Positions 141 to 47,732 of a stretch of 64,000 bases of DNA are shown here, piece by piece. The position numbers and the translations under genes are program-made. The stretch is from Micromonospora sp. HM5-17 (lineage in GTDB: Bacteria; Actinomycetota; Actinomycetes; Mycobacteriales; Micromonosporaceae). Numbering within the stretch: the stretch's first letter is position 1; each line of letters begins with the position of its first letter. The notes beneath the pieces are model-generated. The model was not told the origin of the DNA. It did no database searches and saw only the letters and a program-made list of their open reading frames with translations. The stretch lies in contig NZ_RJWA01000001.1 of the NCBI RefSeq assembly GCF_003762835.1, forward strand, positions 992,001-1,056,000. Reading direction: 5' to 3'.

Positions 141-992
141 GTGAACCCGATGCTGGCGGCGGCGCGTGCCGGGCTGGTACGTGGCGGGATCGAGGTACGG
201 CACACCCTGACCAACGCGCAGGACCTGTGGAACTACCTCTTCCCCAACCTGATCTTCCTGGTCGTCATGTTCTTCATGCGGAACGCGACCGTGCCCGGCA
301 CCACCTTCTCGCTCGGGGCCCGCACCCTGCCGAGCCTGCTCGGTGGGGGCGTGGCGTTCGGCGCCATGGTGACGATGATGATGACGCTCGCCCTCGAGCG
401 CGAGGACGGTACGCTACTCCGGGCCAAGGCGGTCCCGCACGGCATGCTTGGCTACCTCATCGGCAAGGTCGTGCAGGTGGCCGGGATGACCGTGGTCAGC
501 TCCGTCGTCCTGGTGGTCCCGGGGATGCTGCTGGTGGACGGGCTGGCGCCCGGCGGCCCGGTTGCCGGGCTGACCCTGCTCGGAGTGGTGCTGCTCGGCC
601 TGGTCGCCTGCCTGCCGCTCGGCGCCATCTTCGGCTCGCTCTTCGAGAACCCGCGCAACCTCGGAGTGATCACGCTGCCTATCATGGGCCTCGTCGCCAT
701 CTCCGGGATCTTCTATCCGATCAACGGCTTCCCGACCTGGTTGCAGTGGATCGGACAGGCGTTTCCGATCTACTGGCTTGGCCTCGGTATGCGTTCGGCG
801 CTGTTGCCGGACGAACTGGCGGCGGCCGAGATCGGCGGATCCTGGCGGCACCTGGAGACGTTCGGCATGCTCGGCGCCTGGGCCGTGCTCGGGCTGCTGA
901 TCGCGCCGGTCGTGCTGCGCCGGATGGCCCGGCGGGAGTCCGGGTCGGCCGTGGCGGCCCGCAGGGAGAAGGCGATGCAGAGGACCACCTGA
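141..992 (+). CDS. ABC-2 type transporter permease
   Basis: Membrane component of an ABC-2 family exporter, predicted in the cytoplasmic membrane with a separate ATPase (probably the gene cut off at the left edge). The product is about 283 residues with six hydrophobic stretches, and its cytoplasmic N-terminus ends before LFPNLIFLVVMFF. The loop ALEREDGTLLRAKAVP and the pattern GIFYPINGFPTWLQWI match the daunorubicin-exporter-like permease family. I chose GTG at 141 because AAAGGTGG lies just upstream; an in-frame GTG at 21 would add a Gly/Ala-rich tail unlike the family. The substrate cannot be inferred. Its TGA overlaps the ATG of the next gene, so the two are translationally coupled. Confidence 0.85.
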   Translation: MNPMLAAARAGLVRGGIEVRHTLTNAQDLWNYLFPNLIFLVVMFFMRNATVPGTTFSLGARTLPSLLGGGVAFGAMVTMMMTLALEREDGTLLRAKAVPHGMLGYLIGKVVQVAGMTVVSSVVLVVPGMLLVDGLAPGGPVAGLTLLGVVLLGLVACLPLGAIFGSLFENPRNLGVITLPIMGLVAISGIFYPINGFPTWLQWIGQAFPIYWLGLGMRSALLPDELAAAEIGGSWRHLETFGMLGAWAVLGLLIAPVVLRRMARRESGSAVAARREKAMQRTT

Positions 993-1234
993 TGAGTGAG
1001 GCGATCTACAACCGCATCGCCGTCCTGCGGGCCGAGCGGGGCATCTCGCGCCGGGAGCTGGCCGAGGCGCTCGGGGTGCACTACCAGACGATCGGTTACC
1101 TGGAGCGTGGCGAGTACAACCCGAGCCTGTATCTGGCGCTGCGGATCGCCCGGTTCTTCGAGGTGCCGGTGGAGGCCGTCTTCTCCACCGAGCCGTTTCC
1201 CCGGATCGGCGCGACCCATCAGGTGGTGGCCTGA
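992..1234 (+). CDS. small HTH XRE-family transcriptional regulator
   Basis: An 80-residue protein made almost entirely of one Cro/C1-type helix-turn-helix (about residues 5-60; key segment RRELAEALGVHYQTIGYLER, then EYNPSLYLALRIARFF). Proteins this short occur beside ABC-2 exporters and probably act as dimeric DNA-binding repressors of their own operon. The start ATG overlaps the permease stop (TGATG), which places it in the exporter operon. No effector domain is present. The DNA-binding assignment is firm; the target is inferred from position. Confidence 0.85.
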   Translation: MSEAIYNRIAVLRAERGISRRELAEALGVHYQTIGYLERGEYNPSLYLALRIARFFEVPVEAVFSTEPFPRIGATHQVVA

Positions 1235-1267: not shown

Positions 1268-1334
1268 GGTTCTGGGGTGGGGCCGGGTGACCCGTTCGGG
1301 GCGGTCAGGCGTGATCCCGTCGCGGGTCACCCGG
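1268..1334 (+). repeat. dispersed hairpin-like repeat, copy 1
   Basis: The spacer between the HTH gene and proA contains GGGCGGTCAGGCGTGATCCC (1299-1318), present identically at 43692-43711 between rpoB and rpoC. The flanks also align: a TCTGGGG-GG block before and CGGGTCAC after. GGTGACCCG and CGGGTCACC form inverted arms within this copy. A partial echo, GTTCGGGCGGTCAG, follows at 1341-1354 and runs into the proA stop codon. Confidence 0.55.
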
Positions 1335-1350: not shown

Positions 1351-2619
1351 TCAGCCCCGCAGGTGGCCGTCGCCGGTGACGACGTACTTGGTGGAGGTCA
1401 GCTCCGGCAGGCCCATCGGCCCCCGGGCGTGCAGCTTCTGGGTCGAGATGCCGATCTCGGCACCGAACCCGAACTCCCCGCCGTCGGTGAACCGGGTGCT
1501 GGCGTTGACCATCACCGCCGCCGCGTCGACCCGCGCGACGAAGGCTCGGGCCGCCGCCATCGACTCCGTGACGATCGCCTCGGTGTGCTGCGAGCCGTAC
1601 CGGTTGATGTGCGCGACCGCCGCGTCGAGCGAGTCGACGACGGCGGCGGAGATGTCCGCGGAGAGGTACTCGGTGCCGTAGTCCTCCTCGGTGGCCGGGA
1701 CCACGTCGGGGGAGTACGCCGCCACCTCCGGCGAGCCGTGCACCGTCACCCCGGCCTCGTGCAGGGCGGCCAGCACCCTGGGCAGGAACGCGTCGGCGAT
1801 GTCGGCGTGCACCAGCAGCGACTCGGCGGTGTTGCAGGTCGACAGGCGCTGGGTCTTGGAGTTGAGCACGATCGCCAGCGCCTTGTCGAGGTCGGCGGCG
1901 GCGTCGACGTAGACGTGGCAGTTGCCGACCCCGGTCTCGATCACCGGCACCGTGGACTCCTCGACCACGGTGCGGATCAGCGATGCCCCGCCGCGCGGGA
2001 TCAGGACGTCGACCAGGCCCCGGGCCCGCATCAGCTCCTTGACCGAGTCCCGGGACGACGCGTCCAGCAACTGGACGGCGTCGGCCGGCAGCCCGGCCCC
2101 GGCGATCGCGTCCCGGAGCACCGCCACCAGCGCCGTGTTGGAGTGAACGGCCGAGGACGAGCCGCGCAGCAGGGCGGCGTTGCCGGACTTGAGACAGATG
2201 CCGGCGGCGTCCACGGTGACGTTCGGTCGCCCCTCGTAGATGATCCCGACCACCCCGAACGGAACCCGGATCTGCCGCAGCTCCAGCCCGTTCGGCAGCG
2301 TGCTGCCCCGGACCACCTCGCCGACCGGGTCGGCGAGCGCGGCCATCTGGCGCAGCGCGTCGGCGATCGCCGTGACCCGGGCCTCGGTGAGGGCGAGCCG
2401 GTCCAGGATCGCCGCGGACAGGCCGGCCTCGCGGCCGGCGGCCAGGTCCGCCTCGTTGGCGGTCAGGATCTCCGGGGTACGGGCGACCAGCGCGTCCGCC
2501 ATCGCGTGCAGCGCCGCGTCCTTGGCCGCCCGCGTCGCGGTGGCCAGCTCCGACGCCGCCACCCGGGCGCGCCTCGCCGCCTCCACCGTCCCGATGCTGG
2601 GGGATGTCTGCGTGGACAT
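1351..2619 (-). CDS. proA: gamma-glutamyl phosphate reductase
   Basis: Second step of proline biosynthesis: NADPH-dependent reduction of gamma-glutamyl phosphate to glutamate-5-semialdehyde in the cytoplasm. The aldehyde-dehydrogenase-like fold is full length (about 422 residues). Visible signatures are [23 protein letters not shown] and the catalytic cysteine in [12 protein letters not shown] (about residue 262). The start is ATG at 2619, since TACAGT (reverse strand, 2631-2626) lies six bases upstream, as expected for a leaderless transcript; an in-frame ATG two codons earlier (2625) would abut the -10 box. proB lies upstream on the same strand with a 216-base spacer, so the pair need not be one transcript. 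Confidence 0.95.
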
Positions 2620-2625
2620 CCCCAT

Positions 2626-40223: not shown

Positions 40224-43200
40224 TTGGCAGCTTCCCGCCCTGCGAAGACCAGTCGTACGTCGAGCGCTTTCGCGCCCCGCCGAATCTCCTTCGGCAGGAT
40301 CACCGAACACCTCGAGGTCCCCAACCTCCTTGCCATCCAGAACGAGTCCTTCGACTGGCTGATCGGCAACGAGGCTTGGCAGGGCCGGTCGGCCGACGAC
40401 CCGCACGCTCGATCGGGTCTCGCTGAGATTCTCGACGAGATCAGTCCCATTGAGGACTTCTCCGGCACGATGTCGCTCTCGTTCTCCTCGCCGCGCTTCG
40501 ACGAGGTCAAGGCCTCGATCGAGGAGTGCAAGGAGAAGGACCTGACCTACTGCGCGCCGCTCTTCGTGACCGCGGAGTTCACCAACAACACCACCGGCGA
40601 GATCAAGAGCCAGACGGTGTTCATGGGTGACTTCCCGATGATGACGCCGAAGGGCACCTTCATCATCAACGGCACCGAGCGCGTCGTGGTCAGCCAGCTC
40701 GTCCGGTCCCCGGGCGTCTACTTCGACAAGCAGCCGGACAAGACCTCCGACCGCGACCTCTCCAGTGTGAAGGTCATCCCGAGCCGGGGTGCCTGGCTGG
40801 AGTTTGATATCGACAAGCGCGACACCGTCGGTGTCCGTATCGACCGCAAGCGCCGGCAGGCCGTCACCGTCCTGCTCAAGGCGATCGGCTGGACCAACGA
40901 GCAGATCCGCGAGCGGTTCGGCTGGTCCGAGCTGATGATGACGACCCTGGAGAAGGACCACATCGCCGGGGCGGACGAGGCGCTGCTCGACATCTACCGC
41001 AAGCTGCGGCCGGGCGAGCCACCGACGCGGGAGAACGCCCAGACGCTGCTCGACAACCTCTTCTTCAACCCGAAGCGGTACGACCTGGCCAAGGTCGGGC
41101 GCTACAAGTTCAACAAGAAGCTCGGGATCGACGTACCGATCACCACCGGCATCCTGACCGAGGACGACATCGTCGCCACGGTCGAGTACCTCTGCCGGCT
41201 GCACGCCGGTGAGGAGGGCTACGAGCCCGACGACATCGACCACTTCGGCAACCGCCGGCTGCGTACCGTGGGCGAGCTGATCCAGAACCAGATCCGGGTC
41301 GGCCTCTCCCGGATGGAGCGGGTCGTCCGCGAGCGGATGACCACCCAGGACGTCGAGGCGATCACGCCGCAGACCCTGATCAACATCCGCCCGGTGGTGG
41401 CGGCGATCAAGGAGTTCTTCGGTACGTCGCAGCTCTCGCAGTTCATGGACCAGACCAACCCGCTGGCGGGTCTCACCCACCGCCGCCGGCTGAGCGCGCT
41501 CGGCCCCGGCGGTCTGTCCCGGGAGCGGGCCGGCTTCGAGGTCCGGGACGTGCACCCGTCGCACTACGGCCGGATGTGCCCGATCGAGACGCCGGAAGGC
41601 CCCAACATCGGCCTGATCGGTGCGCTCTCCACCTTCGCCCGGGTCAATCCGTTCGGCTTCATCGAGACGCCGTACCGGAAGGTCGTGGACGGCCGGGTCA
41701 CCGACCAGATCGACTACCTGACCGCGGACGAGGAGGACCGGTACGTCCTGGCCCAGGCGAACGCGCCGCTGACCAGCGACGGCCGCTTCGCCGAGGACCG
41801 GGTGCTGGTCCGCCGGAAGGGCGGCGAGGTCGACTTCGTCGCGCCGTCCGCCGTCGACTACATGGACGTCTCGCCGCGGCAGATGGTCTCCGTCGCGACG
41901 GCCATGATTCCGTTCCTGGAGCACGACGACGCCAACCGGGCCCTGATGGGCGCCAACATGCAGCGCCAGGCGGTCCCGCTGATCAAGGCCGAGGCGCCGC
42001 TGGTCGGCACCGGCATGGAGTACCGGGCCGCGGTCGACGCCGGTGACGTGGTGGTGGCCGAGGTCGGTGGCGTGGTCGAGGACCTCTGCGCCGACTACAT
42101 CACCATCCACCAGGACGACGGCCACCGGCGGACGTACCTGCTGCACAAGTTCCGTCGTTCGAACGCCGGCTCCTGCGTCAACCAGAAGCCGATCGTCTTC
42201 GAGGGGGACCGGGTCGAGGCCGGCCAGGTCATCGCGGACGGGCCGTGCACCGACAAGGGCGAGATGGCGCTCGGGCGGAACCTGCTCGTCGCCTTCATGC
42301 CCTGGGAGGGCCACAACTACGAGGACGCGATCATCCTGTCGCAGCGCCTCGTCCAGCAGGACATCCTCACCTCGATCCACATCGAGGAGCACGAGGTCGA
42401 CGCGCGGGACACCAAGCTGGGGCCGGAGGAGATCACCCGCGACATCCCGAACGTCAGCGAGGAGATGCTCGCCGACCTCGACGAGCGCGGCATCATCCGG
42501 ATCGGCGCCGAGGTGGTGACCGGGGACATCCTGGTCGGCAAGGTCACCCCCAAGGGTGAGACCGAGCTGACCCCGGAGGAACGGCTGCTCCGTGCGATCT
42601 TCGGTGAGAAGGCCCGGGAGGTCCGGGACACCTCGCTGAAGGTGCCGCACGGCGAGACCGGCACGGTGATCGGTGTACGGACCTTCTCGCGGGAGGACGG
42701 CGACGAGCTGCCGCCGGGCGTCAACGAGCTGGTCCGGGTCTACGTGGCGCAGAAGCGGAAGATCCAGGACGGTGACAAGCTCGCCGGTCGGCACGGCAAC
42801 AAGGGGGTCATCTCCAAGATCCTGCCGGTCGAGGACATGCCGTTCCTGGAGGACGGCACGCCGGTCGACATCGTGCTCAACCCGCTCGGTGTGCCGAGCC
42901 GGATGAACATCGGCCAGGTCCTGGAAACCCACCTCGGTTGGGTAGCCAAGACCGGGTGGAAGGTCGTGGGCGACGACGCGGACTGGAAGCGAGCGCTGCG
43001 CGCGATCGACGCCCACGAGGCCGAACCGGACACCAACGTGGCGACGCCGGTCTTCGACGGCGCCCGCGAGGAGGAGATCGCCGGTCTGCTCGAGTCGACG
43101 CTGCCCAACCGCGACGGCAAGCAGTTGATCGGGCGTAGCGGCAAGGCGCGGCTCTTCGACGGCCGTTCCGGCGAGCCGCTGCCGGACCCGATCGCGGTCG

Positions 43201-43655
43201 GCTACATCTACATCCTCAAGCTGAACCACCTGGTCGACGACAAGATCCACGCTCGGTCGACCGGCCCGTACTCGATGATCACTCAGCAGCCGCTGGGTGG
43301 TAAGGCGCAGTTCGGTGGCCAGCGGTTCGGCGAGATGGAGTGCTGGGCGATGCAGGCGTACGGCGCCGCGTACGCCCTGCAGGAGCTGTTGACGATCAAG
43401 TCCGACGACGTGTTGGGCCGGGTCAAGGTCTACGAGGCGATCGTCAAGGGCGAGAACATCCCGGAACCGGGCATCCCGGAGTCCTTCAAGGTGCTGCTCA
43501 AGGAGCTGCAGTCGCTGTGCCTCAACGTTGAGGTGCTCTCCAGCGACGGTGTGGCTCTGGAGATGCGCGAGACCGACGACGAGGTCTTCCGGGCTGCGGA
43601 GGAACTCGGTATCGACCTGTCCCGGCGCGAGCCGAGCTCGGTCGAAGAGGTGTAA
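40224..43655 (+). CDS. rpoB: RNA polymerase subunit beta
   Basis: Catalytic beta subunit, 1143 residues. The rifampicin-binding region (about residues 400-430) reads [20 protein letters not shown] then LSALGPGGL, with the usual sensitive-type residues (Asp, His, Ser at the main resistance positions). Further blocks: [35 protein letters not shown], and [20 protein letters not shown]. The start is TTG 40224, with GGAAGGA seven bases upstream. rpoC follows after 137 bases that contain a hairpin repeat. Confidence 0.98.
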
Positions 43656-43666
43656 GGCGCGTGGCG

Positions 43667-43736
43667 GGTCTGGGGCGGTGCGACCCGCTCCGGGCGGTCA
43701 GGCGTGATCCCCGTACGGGTCACGCCGCCCCAGACC
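43667..43736 (+). repeat. dispersed hairpin repeat, copy 2 (rpoB-rpoC spacer)
   Basis: A perfect 12-bp outer stem GGTCTGGGGCGG/CCGCCCCAGACC (43667-43678 with 43725-43736) and an inner GACCCG/CGGGTC pairing enclose GGGCGGTCAGGCGTGATCCC (43692-43711), which is identical to 1299-1318. Being in the rpoB-rpoC transcript, it would fold as a long RNA hairpin and might affect stability or polarity. Confidence 0.7.
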
Positions 43737-43792
43737 TCCAGCCCCCGGTGAGCTAGCAGCGGCAGAACGACACGACACGAGGGACATATAAC

Positions 43793-46700
43793 GTGCTCGA
43801 CGTCAACTTCTTCGACGAGTTGCGGATTGGCCTCGCGACCGCCGACGACATCCGGCAGTGGTCGCACGGCGAGGTCAAGAAGCCTGAGACGATCAACTAC
43901 CGCACCCTCAAGCCGGAAAAGGACGGGCTCTTCTGCGAGAAGATCTTCGGTCCGCAGCGGGACTGGGAGTGCTACTGCGGTAAGTACAAGCGGGTCCGGT
44001 TCAAGGGCATCATCTGCGAGCGCTGCGGCGTCGAGGTGACCCGTTCCAAGGTCCGTCGTGAGCGGATGGGGCACATCGAGCTGGCGGCCCCGGTGACGCA
44101 CATCTGGTACTTCAAGGGCGTGCCGAGCCGGCTCGGCTACCTGCTCGACCTGGCGCCGAAGGATCTCGAAAAGATCATTTACTTCGCGTCGTACGTGGTG
44201 ACCAGCGTCGACACCGAGGCGCGGCAGCGCGACCTGCCCACCATCGAGAACGAGATCCTGGCCGAGAAGCGGCAGGCCGAGAACAGCCGCGACTCCGAGA
44301 TCGAGAAGCGGGCCGCCAAGCTCGAGGCCGACCTGGCCGAGCTGGAGGCCGAGGGTGCCAAGGCGGACGTCCGGCGCAAGGTCAAGGAGGCCGGCGAGCG
44401 CGAGATGCGCCAGATCCGCGACCGGGCGCAGCGCGAGATCGACCGTCTGGACGAGGTGCTGGAGACCTTCCGCAAGCTGGAGCCGAAGCAGCTGATCACC
44501 GACGAGCTGCTCTACCGGGAGCTGCGGGACCGGTTCGGCGAGTACTTCACCGGTGGGATGGGCGCCGAGGCGATCAAGGCGCTGGTCCAGAACCTGGACC
44601 TGGAGGCGGAGGCGGAGGGTCTCCGCGAGATCATCCGGACCGGCAAGGGGCAGCGGAAGATCCGGGCGCTCAAGCGGCTGAAGGTGGTCGCGGCGTTCCT
44701 CAACACCCGTAACTCGCCGCTCGGCATGGTGCTGGACTGCGTACCGGTGATCCCGCCGGACCTGCGCCCGATGGTGCAGCTCGACGGTGGCCGCTTCGCG
44801 ACCAGCGACCTGAACGACCTGTACCGCCGGGTGATCAACCGGAACAACCGGCTCAAGCGGCTGATCGACCTCGGCGCGCCCGAGATCATCGTCAACAACG
44901 AGAAGCGGATGCTCCAGGAGGCCGTCGACGCGCTGTTCGACAACGGCCGCCGCGGTCGTCCGGTCACCGGCCCGGGTAACCGGCCGCTGAAGTCGCTCTC
45001 GGACATGCTCAAGGGCAAGCAGGGCCGGTTCCGGCAGAACCTGCTGGGCAAGCGGGTCGACTACTCGGGCCGTTCCGTGATCGTGGTCGGTCCGCAGCTG
45101 AAGCTGCACCAGTGCGGTCTGCCCAAGCAGATGGCGCTGGAGCTGTTCAAGCCGTTCGTGATGAAGCGGCTGGTGGACCTCAACCACGCGCAGAACATCA
45201 AGTCCGCGAAGCGGATGGTCGAGCGGCAGCGGCCGGTCGTCTGGGACGTGCTGGAGGAGGTCATCGGCGAGCACCCGGTGCTGCTGAACCGGGCGCCGAC
45301 CCTGCACCGGCTCGGCATCCAGGCGTTCGAGCCGCAGCTGGTCGAGGGTAAGGCGATCCAGATCCACCCGCTCGTCTGCACCGCGTTCAACGCGGACTTC
45401 GACGGCGACCAGATGGCGGTGCACGTGCCGCTGTCGGCCGAGGCTCAGGCCGAGGCGCGGATCCTGATGCTCTCGTCGAACAACATCCTCAAGCCGGCCG
45501 ACGGCAAGCCGGTCACCATGCCCACCCAGGACATGGTCATCGGCCTCTACTACCTCACCCACCTGACCCCGGGTGAGGTGGGTGAGGGTCGGGTGTTCAG
45601 CTCGGACGCCGAGGCGCGGATGGCCTTCGACAACGGCGAACTCCACCTGCAGGCCCCGGTGAAGATCCGGCTGCGGGGGATCACCGAGGTCGACAACGGG
45701 CCCGGCGCGCCCCGGTGGACGCCGCCGGAGGGCTGGACCCCGGGCGATCCGATCACGGTGGAGACCACGCTGGGTCGGGTGCTGTTCAACGAGACCCTGC
45801 CGCAGGGCTACCGCTTCGTGAACTACGAGATCCGCAAGGGTCAGCTCTCCGCGATCGTCAACGACCTCGCCGAGCGGTACCCGAAGGTGGCCCTCGCCGC
45901 CACGCTCGACGGGCTCAAGGAGTCCGGTTTCCACTGGGCCACCTGGTCCGGCGTGACGATCGGCATGGAGGACGTCATCGCGCCGCCGCGCAAGCGGGAG
46001 ATCCTGGAGCGGTACGAGAAGGAAGCCGAGCGGATCGACAAGCAGTACCAGCGCGGTCTGATGACGCTCGAGGAGCGCCGCCTCGAGCTCATCGAGATCT
46101 GGACCAAGGCGAGCACCGAGGTCGCCAAGGACATGGAGAGCGCGCTGCCGCAGGAGAACCCGCTGTGGAAGATGATCAACTCGGGTGCCCGCGGTAACCT
46201 GCTCCAGCTCCGCCAGATCGCGGCGATCCGTGGCCTGGTGGCCAACCCCAAGGGTGAGATCATCCCGCGGCCGATCAAGGCCAGCTACCGGGAGGGCCTC
46301 TCCGTGCTGGAGTACTTCATCTCCACCCACGGTGCCCGGAAGGGTCTTGCCGACACCGCGCTGCGGACCGCCGACTCGGGTTACCTGACCCGCCGTCTGG
46401 TGGACGTGTCGCAGGACGTCATCATCCGCGAGGAGGACTGCGGCACCGACCGGGCGATCACGATGCCGATCGCCCAGAAGGTCGACGGCAAGCTGGTGGT
46501 GCACGAGCACGTGGAGACCGGCGTGCACGCCCGTACCCTGGCCGACGACATCAAGGGCCCCGACGGCAACCTGGTGGCGGAGCGGGGTGCGGACATCAAC
46601 TCGATCCTGGTCGACAAGATGATTGCCGCCGGCATCGACACGGTCCGGGTGCGCAGCGTTCTGACCTGCGAGTCGAAGCTGGGCGTCTGCGCCGCGTGCT

Positions 46701-47680
46701 ACGGCCGTTCGCTGCCGACCGGCAAGACCGTGGACGTCGGCGAGGCGGTTGGCATCATCGCCGCGCAGTCGATCGGTGAGCCGGGTACCCAGCTCACGAT
46801 GCGGACCTTCCACACCGGTGGTGTCGCGGGTGAGGACATCACCCAGGGTCTGCCCCGGGTCCAGGAGATCTTCGAGGCCCGGGTCCCGAAGGGCAAGGCG
46901 CCGATCGCCGAGAGCCCGGGCCGGATCCGGATCGAGGACGGCGAGCGGTCGCGGAAGATCATCATCGTGCCGGACGACGGCAGCGACGAGATCGTCCACG
47001 ACAAGATCTCCAAGCGGGTTCGGCTGCGGGTCCACGACGGGGATCACGTCGAGGTCGGCGAGAAGCTCACCGAGGGCACGATCGACCCGCACGAGCTGCT
47101 GCGGATCCTCGGCCCGCGGGCGGTCCAGGTCCACCTGACCCAGGAGGTGCAGGAGGTCTACCGGTCGCAGGGTGTGCTCATCCACGACAAGCACATCGAG
47201 ATCATCATCCGGCAGATGCTCAAGCGCGTGACGGTGATCGATTCGGGCTCCACCGAGTTCCTCCCCGGTGTGCTGGTTGACCGGGCGGTCTTCGAGGCGG
47301 AGAACCGCCGGCTCGTGGCCGAGGGCGGCGAGCCCGCTGCCGGGCGTCCGGTGCTGATGGGTATCACCAAGGCCTCGCTGGCCACCGACTCCTGGCTCTC
47401 GGCGGCCTCCTTCCAGGAGACCACCCGGGTGCTGACCGACGCGGCGATCAACGCGCGCAGCGACTCGCTCATCGGTCTCAAGGAGAACGTGATCATCGGT
47501 AAGCTCATCCCGGCCGGTACCGGCATCAGCAGGTACCGCAACATCCGGGTCGAGCCGACCGAGGAGGCGAAGGCCAAGGTCTACTCGATGACCGGCTACC
47601 CGGAGACCGACTACGGGTTCGGGCCGGCCAGCGGCCAGGCGGTGCCGCTGGACGACTTCGACTTCGGGTCGTACCGCTGA
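43793..47680 (+). CDS. rpoC: RNA polymerase subunit beta'
   Basis: Largest core subunit, 1295 residues. Zinc ribbon [20 protein letters not shown] near residue 60, an actinobacterial coiled insertion (about 150-240), active-site [12 protein letters not shown] around residue 535 (three Mg-binding Asp), trigger-loop region [20 protein letters not shown] and zinc cysteines in [20 protein letters not shown]. Start GTG 43793 with GAGGGA upstream. It is followed by a long terminator hairpin. Confidence 0.98.
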
Positions 47681-47692
47681 CGGAACGCCTCG

Positions 47693-47732
47693 GGCGCCCC
47701 GTACGTCGTCACCCGACGACGTACGGGGCGCC
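47693..47732 (+). terminator. terminator of rpoBC
   Basis: A perfect 18-bp stem (47693-47710 with 47715-47732) and a four-base loop, 13 bases after the rpoC stop. Confidence 0.92.

Follow-up and report, generated by a model that had tools for sequence, protein, structure and literature searches.

The spacer between rpoB and rpoC in Micromonospora sp. HM5-17 contains a hairpin whose tip recurs beside proA within the same 64,000-nucleotide stretch of DNA (the window), which raises the question of what kind of element lies inside this essential operon and whether it is dispersed or mobile. A first-pass annotation had proposed a REP-like dispersed element or a transposable mini-element.

The two copies in the window

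As the first-pass annotation claimed, the 20-nt core GGGCGGTCAGGCGTGATCCC was exact at both places (Table 1). No third core was found in the window even with up to three mismatches, and 100 shuffles gave none. Chance was ruled out as the origin of the repeat, since none is expected in the window, seven strong copies are present in the genome, and matches are found in relatives. The flanks could be aligned as well (46 of 66 columns match, and 26 of 46 outside the core), and each core is the tip of an inverted repeat, so the inverted arms had been correctly recognised. Both copies fold as long hairpins, that of the rpoB-rpoC spacer far better than shuffles (-60.4 kcal/mol, z -6.4) and that of proA somewhat better (-43.7 kcal/mol, z -2.7). 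The rpoB-rpoC hairpin, described earlier as having 12 bp or more, is real, but that size was too low, as it has 21 pairs with one mismatch.

The placement in the rpoB-rpoC spacer also held, the flanking genes being genuine rpoB and rpoC by Pfam; the element is separated by 10 nt from the rpoB stop and by 55 nt from the rpoC start. The second copy lies where an HTH gene and proA converge. Covariance model R1, described below, matched the rpoB-rpoC copy with 83 bits (contig positions 1035669-1035734) and the proA copy with 73 bits, each being one of the seven rows on which R1 was trained. At core position 13 the rpoB-rpoC copy has G and the family consensus has T. An Rfam scan of the window gave only four tRNAs above the gathering threshold.

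Table 1. Positions in the window of the two hairpins, their parts and the adjoining genes
Feature	Coordinates	Strand	Details
Hairpin element, rpoB-rpoC spacer	43666..43737	+	arms 43666-43687 and 43716-43737
Head domain at apex (CTCC, core, CGTA)	43688..43715	+	141-copy head profile, 61-sequence consensus fold
20-nt core, rpoB-rpoC copy	43692..43711	+	exact repeat
Second copy, between HTH gene and proA	1283..1334	+	arms 1283-1295 and 1322-1334
20-nt core, second copy	1299..1318	+	exact repeat
rpoB	40224..43655	+	Pfam RNA_pol_Rpb2 domains
rpoC	43793..47680	+	Pfam RNA_pol_Rpb1 domains
proA, convergent neighbour of second copy	1351..2625	-	NF001221 604.6 bits, TIGR00407 508.1 bits
Cro/C1-type HTH gene, upstream of second copy	992..1234	+	HTH_3 53.8 bits

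Seven other intergenic hairpins with long stems and short loops were seen in the window, mostly behind genes and none with the head; one, at 47693-47732, follows rpoC by 12 nt. No such long-stem hairpins were present in two Markov-random sequences of window size.

A dispersed family with a constant head and a variable stem

The first copies were obtained by pattern search, and model R1 was then built from seven of them. The genome-wide count recommended by the first-pass annotation, performed with R1, gave seven strong copies in HM5-17 (these being the R1 training set), together with reverse-strand matches of four of the seven and three weak places. A repeat of only two copies with none in relatives, which had been named as the case against a dispersed element, is therefore not what the genomes contain. 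When R1 was run on 31 genomes, with the best 150 candidates per genome scored, matches were obtained in 14, own genome included, of which 13 belong to the same family (Micromonosporaceae) and one to the same order; per-genome counts are not copy numbers, because of this cap and because both-strand matches of one copy are counted twice. The core with up to one mismatch gave 171 matches in 47 of 81 family genomes, compared with 10 when the pattern was reversed as a control; chance therefore accounts for some of the single one-mismatch hits. A scan of named genomes yielded at least 120 stretches, and among those listed most were from Micromonospora, with others from Plantactinospora, Actinoplanes and further genera; some listed matches lay outside Micromonosporaceae, several of them without a stem. 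No copy was detected by R1 or the core pattern in one genome of the same genus, G001.

Beyond the family, a 24-nt pattern with up to three mismatches matched 12 of 396 genomes in a wide-phylum scan. A wide phylum distribution was rejected on folding these 12 loci (one per genome), as a long stem with head was present only in two Micromonosporaceae. In a class scan, 17 of 394 genomes matched; all 14 that were not of the family were folded, and head hairpins were found among them only in G713, G670 and G933. Viral contigs gave three matches, none with a stem, and plasmids gave only eight weak hits (best E 0.1). Numbers per genome range from 0 to about 19 copies, dispersed and mostly extragenic. 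The hairpins are thus a scattered family in soil actinobacteria and a few distant relatives, patchy outside Micromonosporaceae.

Comparison of 18 loci with Rfam returned only sub-threshold microRNA models for the copies and nothing above the gathering threshold. Membership in a known RNA family was rejected; five further loci gave only two TPP riboswitches (L107, L140), which are not at the heads. No description of the motif was found in the open-licence PMC literature searched, including by motif sequence strings. The family is real, widespread and, as far as open-licence literature searches reached, undescribed.

The element is about 75-80 nt long and consists of a head of about 28 nt on a stem of 20-25 bp. 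In a profile of 141 copies the head is nearly constant, CTCY-GGGCGGTCAGGCTTGATCCC-KNCG, and the pairs below the neck are almost free; the invariance of the head in this profile results partly from sampling, as an exact seed had supplied most of the copies. The head is the same, with variants, in copies recovered by the model. The head folds as a bulged GGG-C-GGUC/GAUC-CCC hairpin with an AGGCUU loop, set on a small internal loop. Among 170 head matches (up to one mismatch), 144 had at least 15 of 20 stem pairs; chance hits from outside the family, as well as copies whose arms are unequal, are among the 26 in which a good stem was missing.

Covariation was assessed with 61 dereplicated copies (of 63 kept, the last two being left out), all preselected for at least 16 of 20 stem pairs, a choice that inflates the 97.3% of cells that are paired. 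All 20 outer pairs had changed on both sides, the covariation score was 0.714 (shuffles 0.156, slid versions no more than 0.157), and RNAalifold returned the same 26 pairs for this set. The inner six-pair helix showed no double change within the 61 copies, and changes on one side of it mostly retain a pair. Two compensations of the head helix were found elsewhere: GGG/CCC to GAG/CTC (GAGCGG...GATCTC) in 5 of 215 copies, and GGTC/GATC to GGTG/CATC at six places, three in Trueperella bonasi, two in an Actinomycetaceae MAG and one in G713. The three sites of the MAG and G713 were folded, and they pair. By eye, head columns 23 and 44 tend to vary together, CTCT going with CCC-G and CTCC with CCC-T, which may reflect either two founder subfamilies or a correlated pair, not Watson-Crick, spanning the internal loop.

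On the sense strand, A-C mismatches in the stem outnumbered G-U pairs by 40 to 16 in 64 dereplicated copies (p 0.002). The excess held at every level of dereplication, from 102 A-C against 34 G-U in 188 copies to 15 against 8 in 24. It was significant in sets of 64 copies or more, borderline in the set of 34 (p 0.05) and no longer significant in the set of 24 (p 0.21). The excess is about 2-3 fold, and the headless rpoBC hairpins show the opposite (12 G-U, 7 A-C). Selection on sense RNA predicts the reverse of this excess, which is therefore evidence against sense-RNA pairing selection as the sole keeper of the stem. It could be accounted for by folding of the other DNA strand or by template switching, a process able to rewrite stems according to a section of PMC8794818.

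Position behind genes and the rpoB-rpoC hairpin

Genes were called using a simple codon-bias script, and 144 copies were placed at 56 neighbour-defined loci. Convergent gaps accounted for 19 loci and divergent gaps for one (p 4e-5), which makes the hairpin a 3'-end element. At loci where orientation to the nearest stop codon could be judged, a moderate sense bias was present, with the head in sense at 31 and in antisense at 8 (p 0.0003); tandem gene pairs alone gave 17 sense against 5 antisense loci (p 0.017), or 16 against 5 with ties broken otherwise. The distance from the stop to the nominal stem foot had a median of 25 nt over 110 copies and was at most 60 nt in 76 of these. A U-tract followed the hairpin in 2 of 215 copies, and no tRNA genes were found at nine antisense or paired loci. 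Recurrent loci are at ordinary genes, named by eye except for rpoBC. Many copies are at orthologous loci in several species or genera, for example rpoB-rpoC, so much of the patchiness could be loss. At a separate locus (L107, L140, L145, L216; also L106, L110, L172), the head is antisense to thi genes, again named by eye; in this gap of 640-700 nt no gene was called in four species, and an ORF runs across the head in three.

Of the rpoB-rpoC spacers in 30 family genomes, the own genome among them, 29 had a stem of at least 11 Watson-Crick pairs and L082 had a weaker one; all of these stems begin within 25 nt of the rpoB stop, and the head was present in seven. A set of 92 spacers, almost all from Micromonospora, comprised 91 of the genus to which G009 belongs and one from a named Micromonospora; at least 11 Watson-Crick pairs were present in 89 and 9-10 in the other three, with the head in 18. 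Nearly every rpoB-rpoC spacer examined thus has a terminator-like hairpin, of which the head is an optional tip. Outside the family, where about six spacers were read by eye among L393, L394, L399, L400, L404, L409 and L410, the same-class spacers L393 and L400 also show a hairpin.

Spacers that resemble each other can be 121 or 77 nt long (L324/L276, L294/L296), a difference of about 44 nt located at the apex, and apparent decayed heads were found in L274, L280 and L302. A quick tree of 121 rows needed 17 changes of head state, at least three of them forced by well-supported branches, and does not polarise gain and loss. In L331, L333 and L334 (L332 is similar), an alternative apex around CCTGATCCGGA or CTTGATCCGGA takes the place of the head and could be a decayed head or another family. 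In spacer L299 (G532), the head encloses a second hairpin, about 45-50 nt long.

Dispersal, likeness to known elements and proposed origin

Stem identity is higher within genomes than between them out to about 25 bp, with an excess of about zero beyond. The excess for G015 versus G007 was 0.20 at pairs 1-12 and 0.125 at pairs 13-24, each value being reached in 0 of 200 permutations. Stems therefore fall into genome-specific subfamilies, and, as the likeness spans the stem and not the sequence beyond, it is apparently the hairpin itself that disperses. The outer stems of the G015 copies mostly differ by eye, and Plantactinospora loci have whole stems in common, including one mismatch. G670 has 16 matches, and most of the 13 that were read are in direct arrays 73-163 nt apart. 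In contigs C4, C6, C11 and C20 of this genome, direct arrays of two or three heads were seen, several at contig ends; single heads at contig ends were also seen in G012, G092 and G011, so the hairpins may break assemblies.

No clear insertion event was found. Between xylA and xylB a copy is present in four of seven same-genus genomes and missing in three, and in G001 the apparent 3' flank is retained without a copy. A minority of copies share flanking words: TTGCGG on the left in 27 of 197 against 4, CCTGAC on the right in 20 against 0, and CCGTCG on the right in 15 against 2. Direct repeats of 2, 3 and 4 nt at the foot occurred in 12, 6 and 1 of 215 copies, where 19.2, 4.7 and 2.3 were expected, and thus gave no target-site duplication. 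By eye, no transposase was recognised among the neighbour clusters listed or beside the G670 arrays, and nothing beyond ordinary neighbours between convergent copies. The REP-associated transposase (RAYT) suggested as a check was missing from most carriers: Pfam family PF01797 had no match in 12 of the 14 head-bearing genomes, HM5-17 being one of these 12; it occurred in 4 of the 31 genomes, two of them head carriers.

The label REP-like is apt for dispersal and position; the anatomy is reversed, with a conserved apex and a variable stem, and the RAYT is missing. As regards a transposable mini-element, no target duplication or cognate enzyme was found; unlike a MITE, the hairpin lacks conserved terminal inverted repeats, its outer ends being the variable part. 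In Neisseria and Pasteurellaceae, a conserved word, the uptake sequence, sits in terminator hairpins and forms the stem. The head family likewise has a conserved word in a terminator-like hairpin, placed in the tip rather than the stem. It resembles an intrinsic terminator in lying shortly after the stop codon, mostly in sense. The U-tract is often absent from bacterial terminators, which in the portion of PMC8355165 concerned are hairpins within about 80 nt of the stop that do not need poly-U; a shared apical sequence is no part of that kind of terminator, whereas the head family has one.

GTAG- and CGTC-tagged REPs are described in an excerpt of PMC3733652 as short extragenic palindromes that are dispersed, lie for the most part downstream of coding regions and are plausibly transcribed; the CGTC type, apparently without a dedicated transposase, has stems of 8-9 bp, loops mostly of 4-5 nt and a terminal tag. 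As compared with the CGTC REPs of this excerpt, the head family is also a dispersed extragenic palindrome behind genes with no dedicated transposase found, and differs in its free 20-25-bp stem and fixed apex of about 28 nt. The text of PMC3733652 does not contain the words actinobacter, streptomyces, salinispora, micromonospora or frankia. GTAG was at the foot in 3 of 215 copies, CGTC at the right foot in a minority (22 of 215, with CCGTCG enriched there), and 67 of the 215 had GTGG close to the left foot (26 of 144 against 8 in a control stretch). RAYT-associated REPs and BIMEs, as portrayed in part of PMC2817692, are similarly dispersed and sometimes arrayed hairpins; by comparison with that account, most head carriers have no PF01797, head arrays are direct and not alternating, and at most about 19 heads, not over 100, were counted per genome.

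With only slightly more belief than doubt, we take the rpoB-rpoC hairpin to be one copy of a REP-like dispersed family of 3'-end hairpins of an undescribed type, with a conserved apex, a spread that does not involve RAYT and a factor that reads the head. That it is a classical REP mobilised by RAYT, an IS200/IS605-like Y1 transposase, is extremely improbable and disfavoured: a short dispersed intergenic palindrome with GTGG near the left foot and, in a minority, CGTC words at the right foot would suit such an origin, but the PF01797 result, the rarity of GTAG and the few copies per genome would not. A vertically kept, non-mobile cis-acting RNA motif, whose head is the site of a putative actinobacterial RNA-binding protein on 3'-UTR or terminator hairpins and whose stems drift under compensation, is possible, if rather unlikely. 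The genome-specific stems and direct arrays, the lack of a detected copy in the same-genus G001 and the A-C excess argue against it, although it would explain the place behind genes with its sense bias, the use of the same orthologous loci in several genera and the one-sided head-helix changes that leave a pair.

The apex might instead be a module of its own, a mini-hairpin of about 44 nt that inserts into the short loop of a pre-existing terminator hairpin, the outer stem being the host's. Most genomes have a headless rpoB-rpoC hairpin, the apex difference between similar spacers is clean, and in G015, G007 and G670 the genome signature is strongest at stem pairs 6-10, all of which are consistent with this; we nevertheless consider it unlikely, as the signature reaches significantly into the outer stem, Plantactinospora loci share entire stems with their mismatch, remnants such as L274 resemble apical deletion, and the tree cannot polarise gain and loss. 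It is quite improbable that the family is a class of mobile hairpins whose invariant apex is the recognition site of a putative copying or inserting enzyme, possibly acting through an ssDNA or RNA intermediate, with insertion into gene 3' ends mostly in the sense of the transcript.

For the REP-like 3'-end family, the unit would spread as a whole hairpin by a route without RAYT, and copies would be retained at places where they form or reinforce the hairpin that ends a transcript at its 3' side, whether as terminator or as RNase barrier. In the rpoB-rpoC spacer the copy may serve in mRNA processing or attenuation. The head is the only part whose sequence stays constant, so something is expected to read it, presumably a protein or a dispersal enzyme. 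An apex of 20 nt that is exact across distant actinobacteria on nearly free stems implies a reader that is not described in the literature searched, and the same-genus G001, in which no copy was detected, offers a way to look for it. If the mobile-hairpin reading were true, actinobacteria would carry mobile terminator caps, even inside rpoBC. Since the head is either on or off in the rpoB-rpoC spacers of Micromonospora species, its effect on an essential operon can be tested directly.
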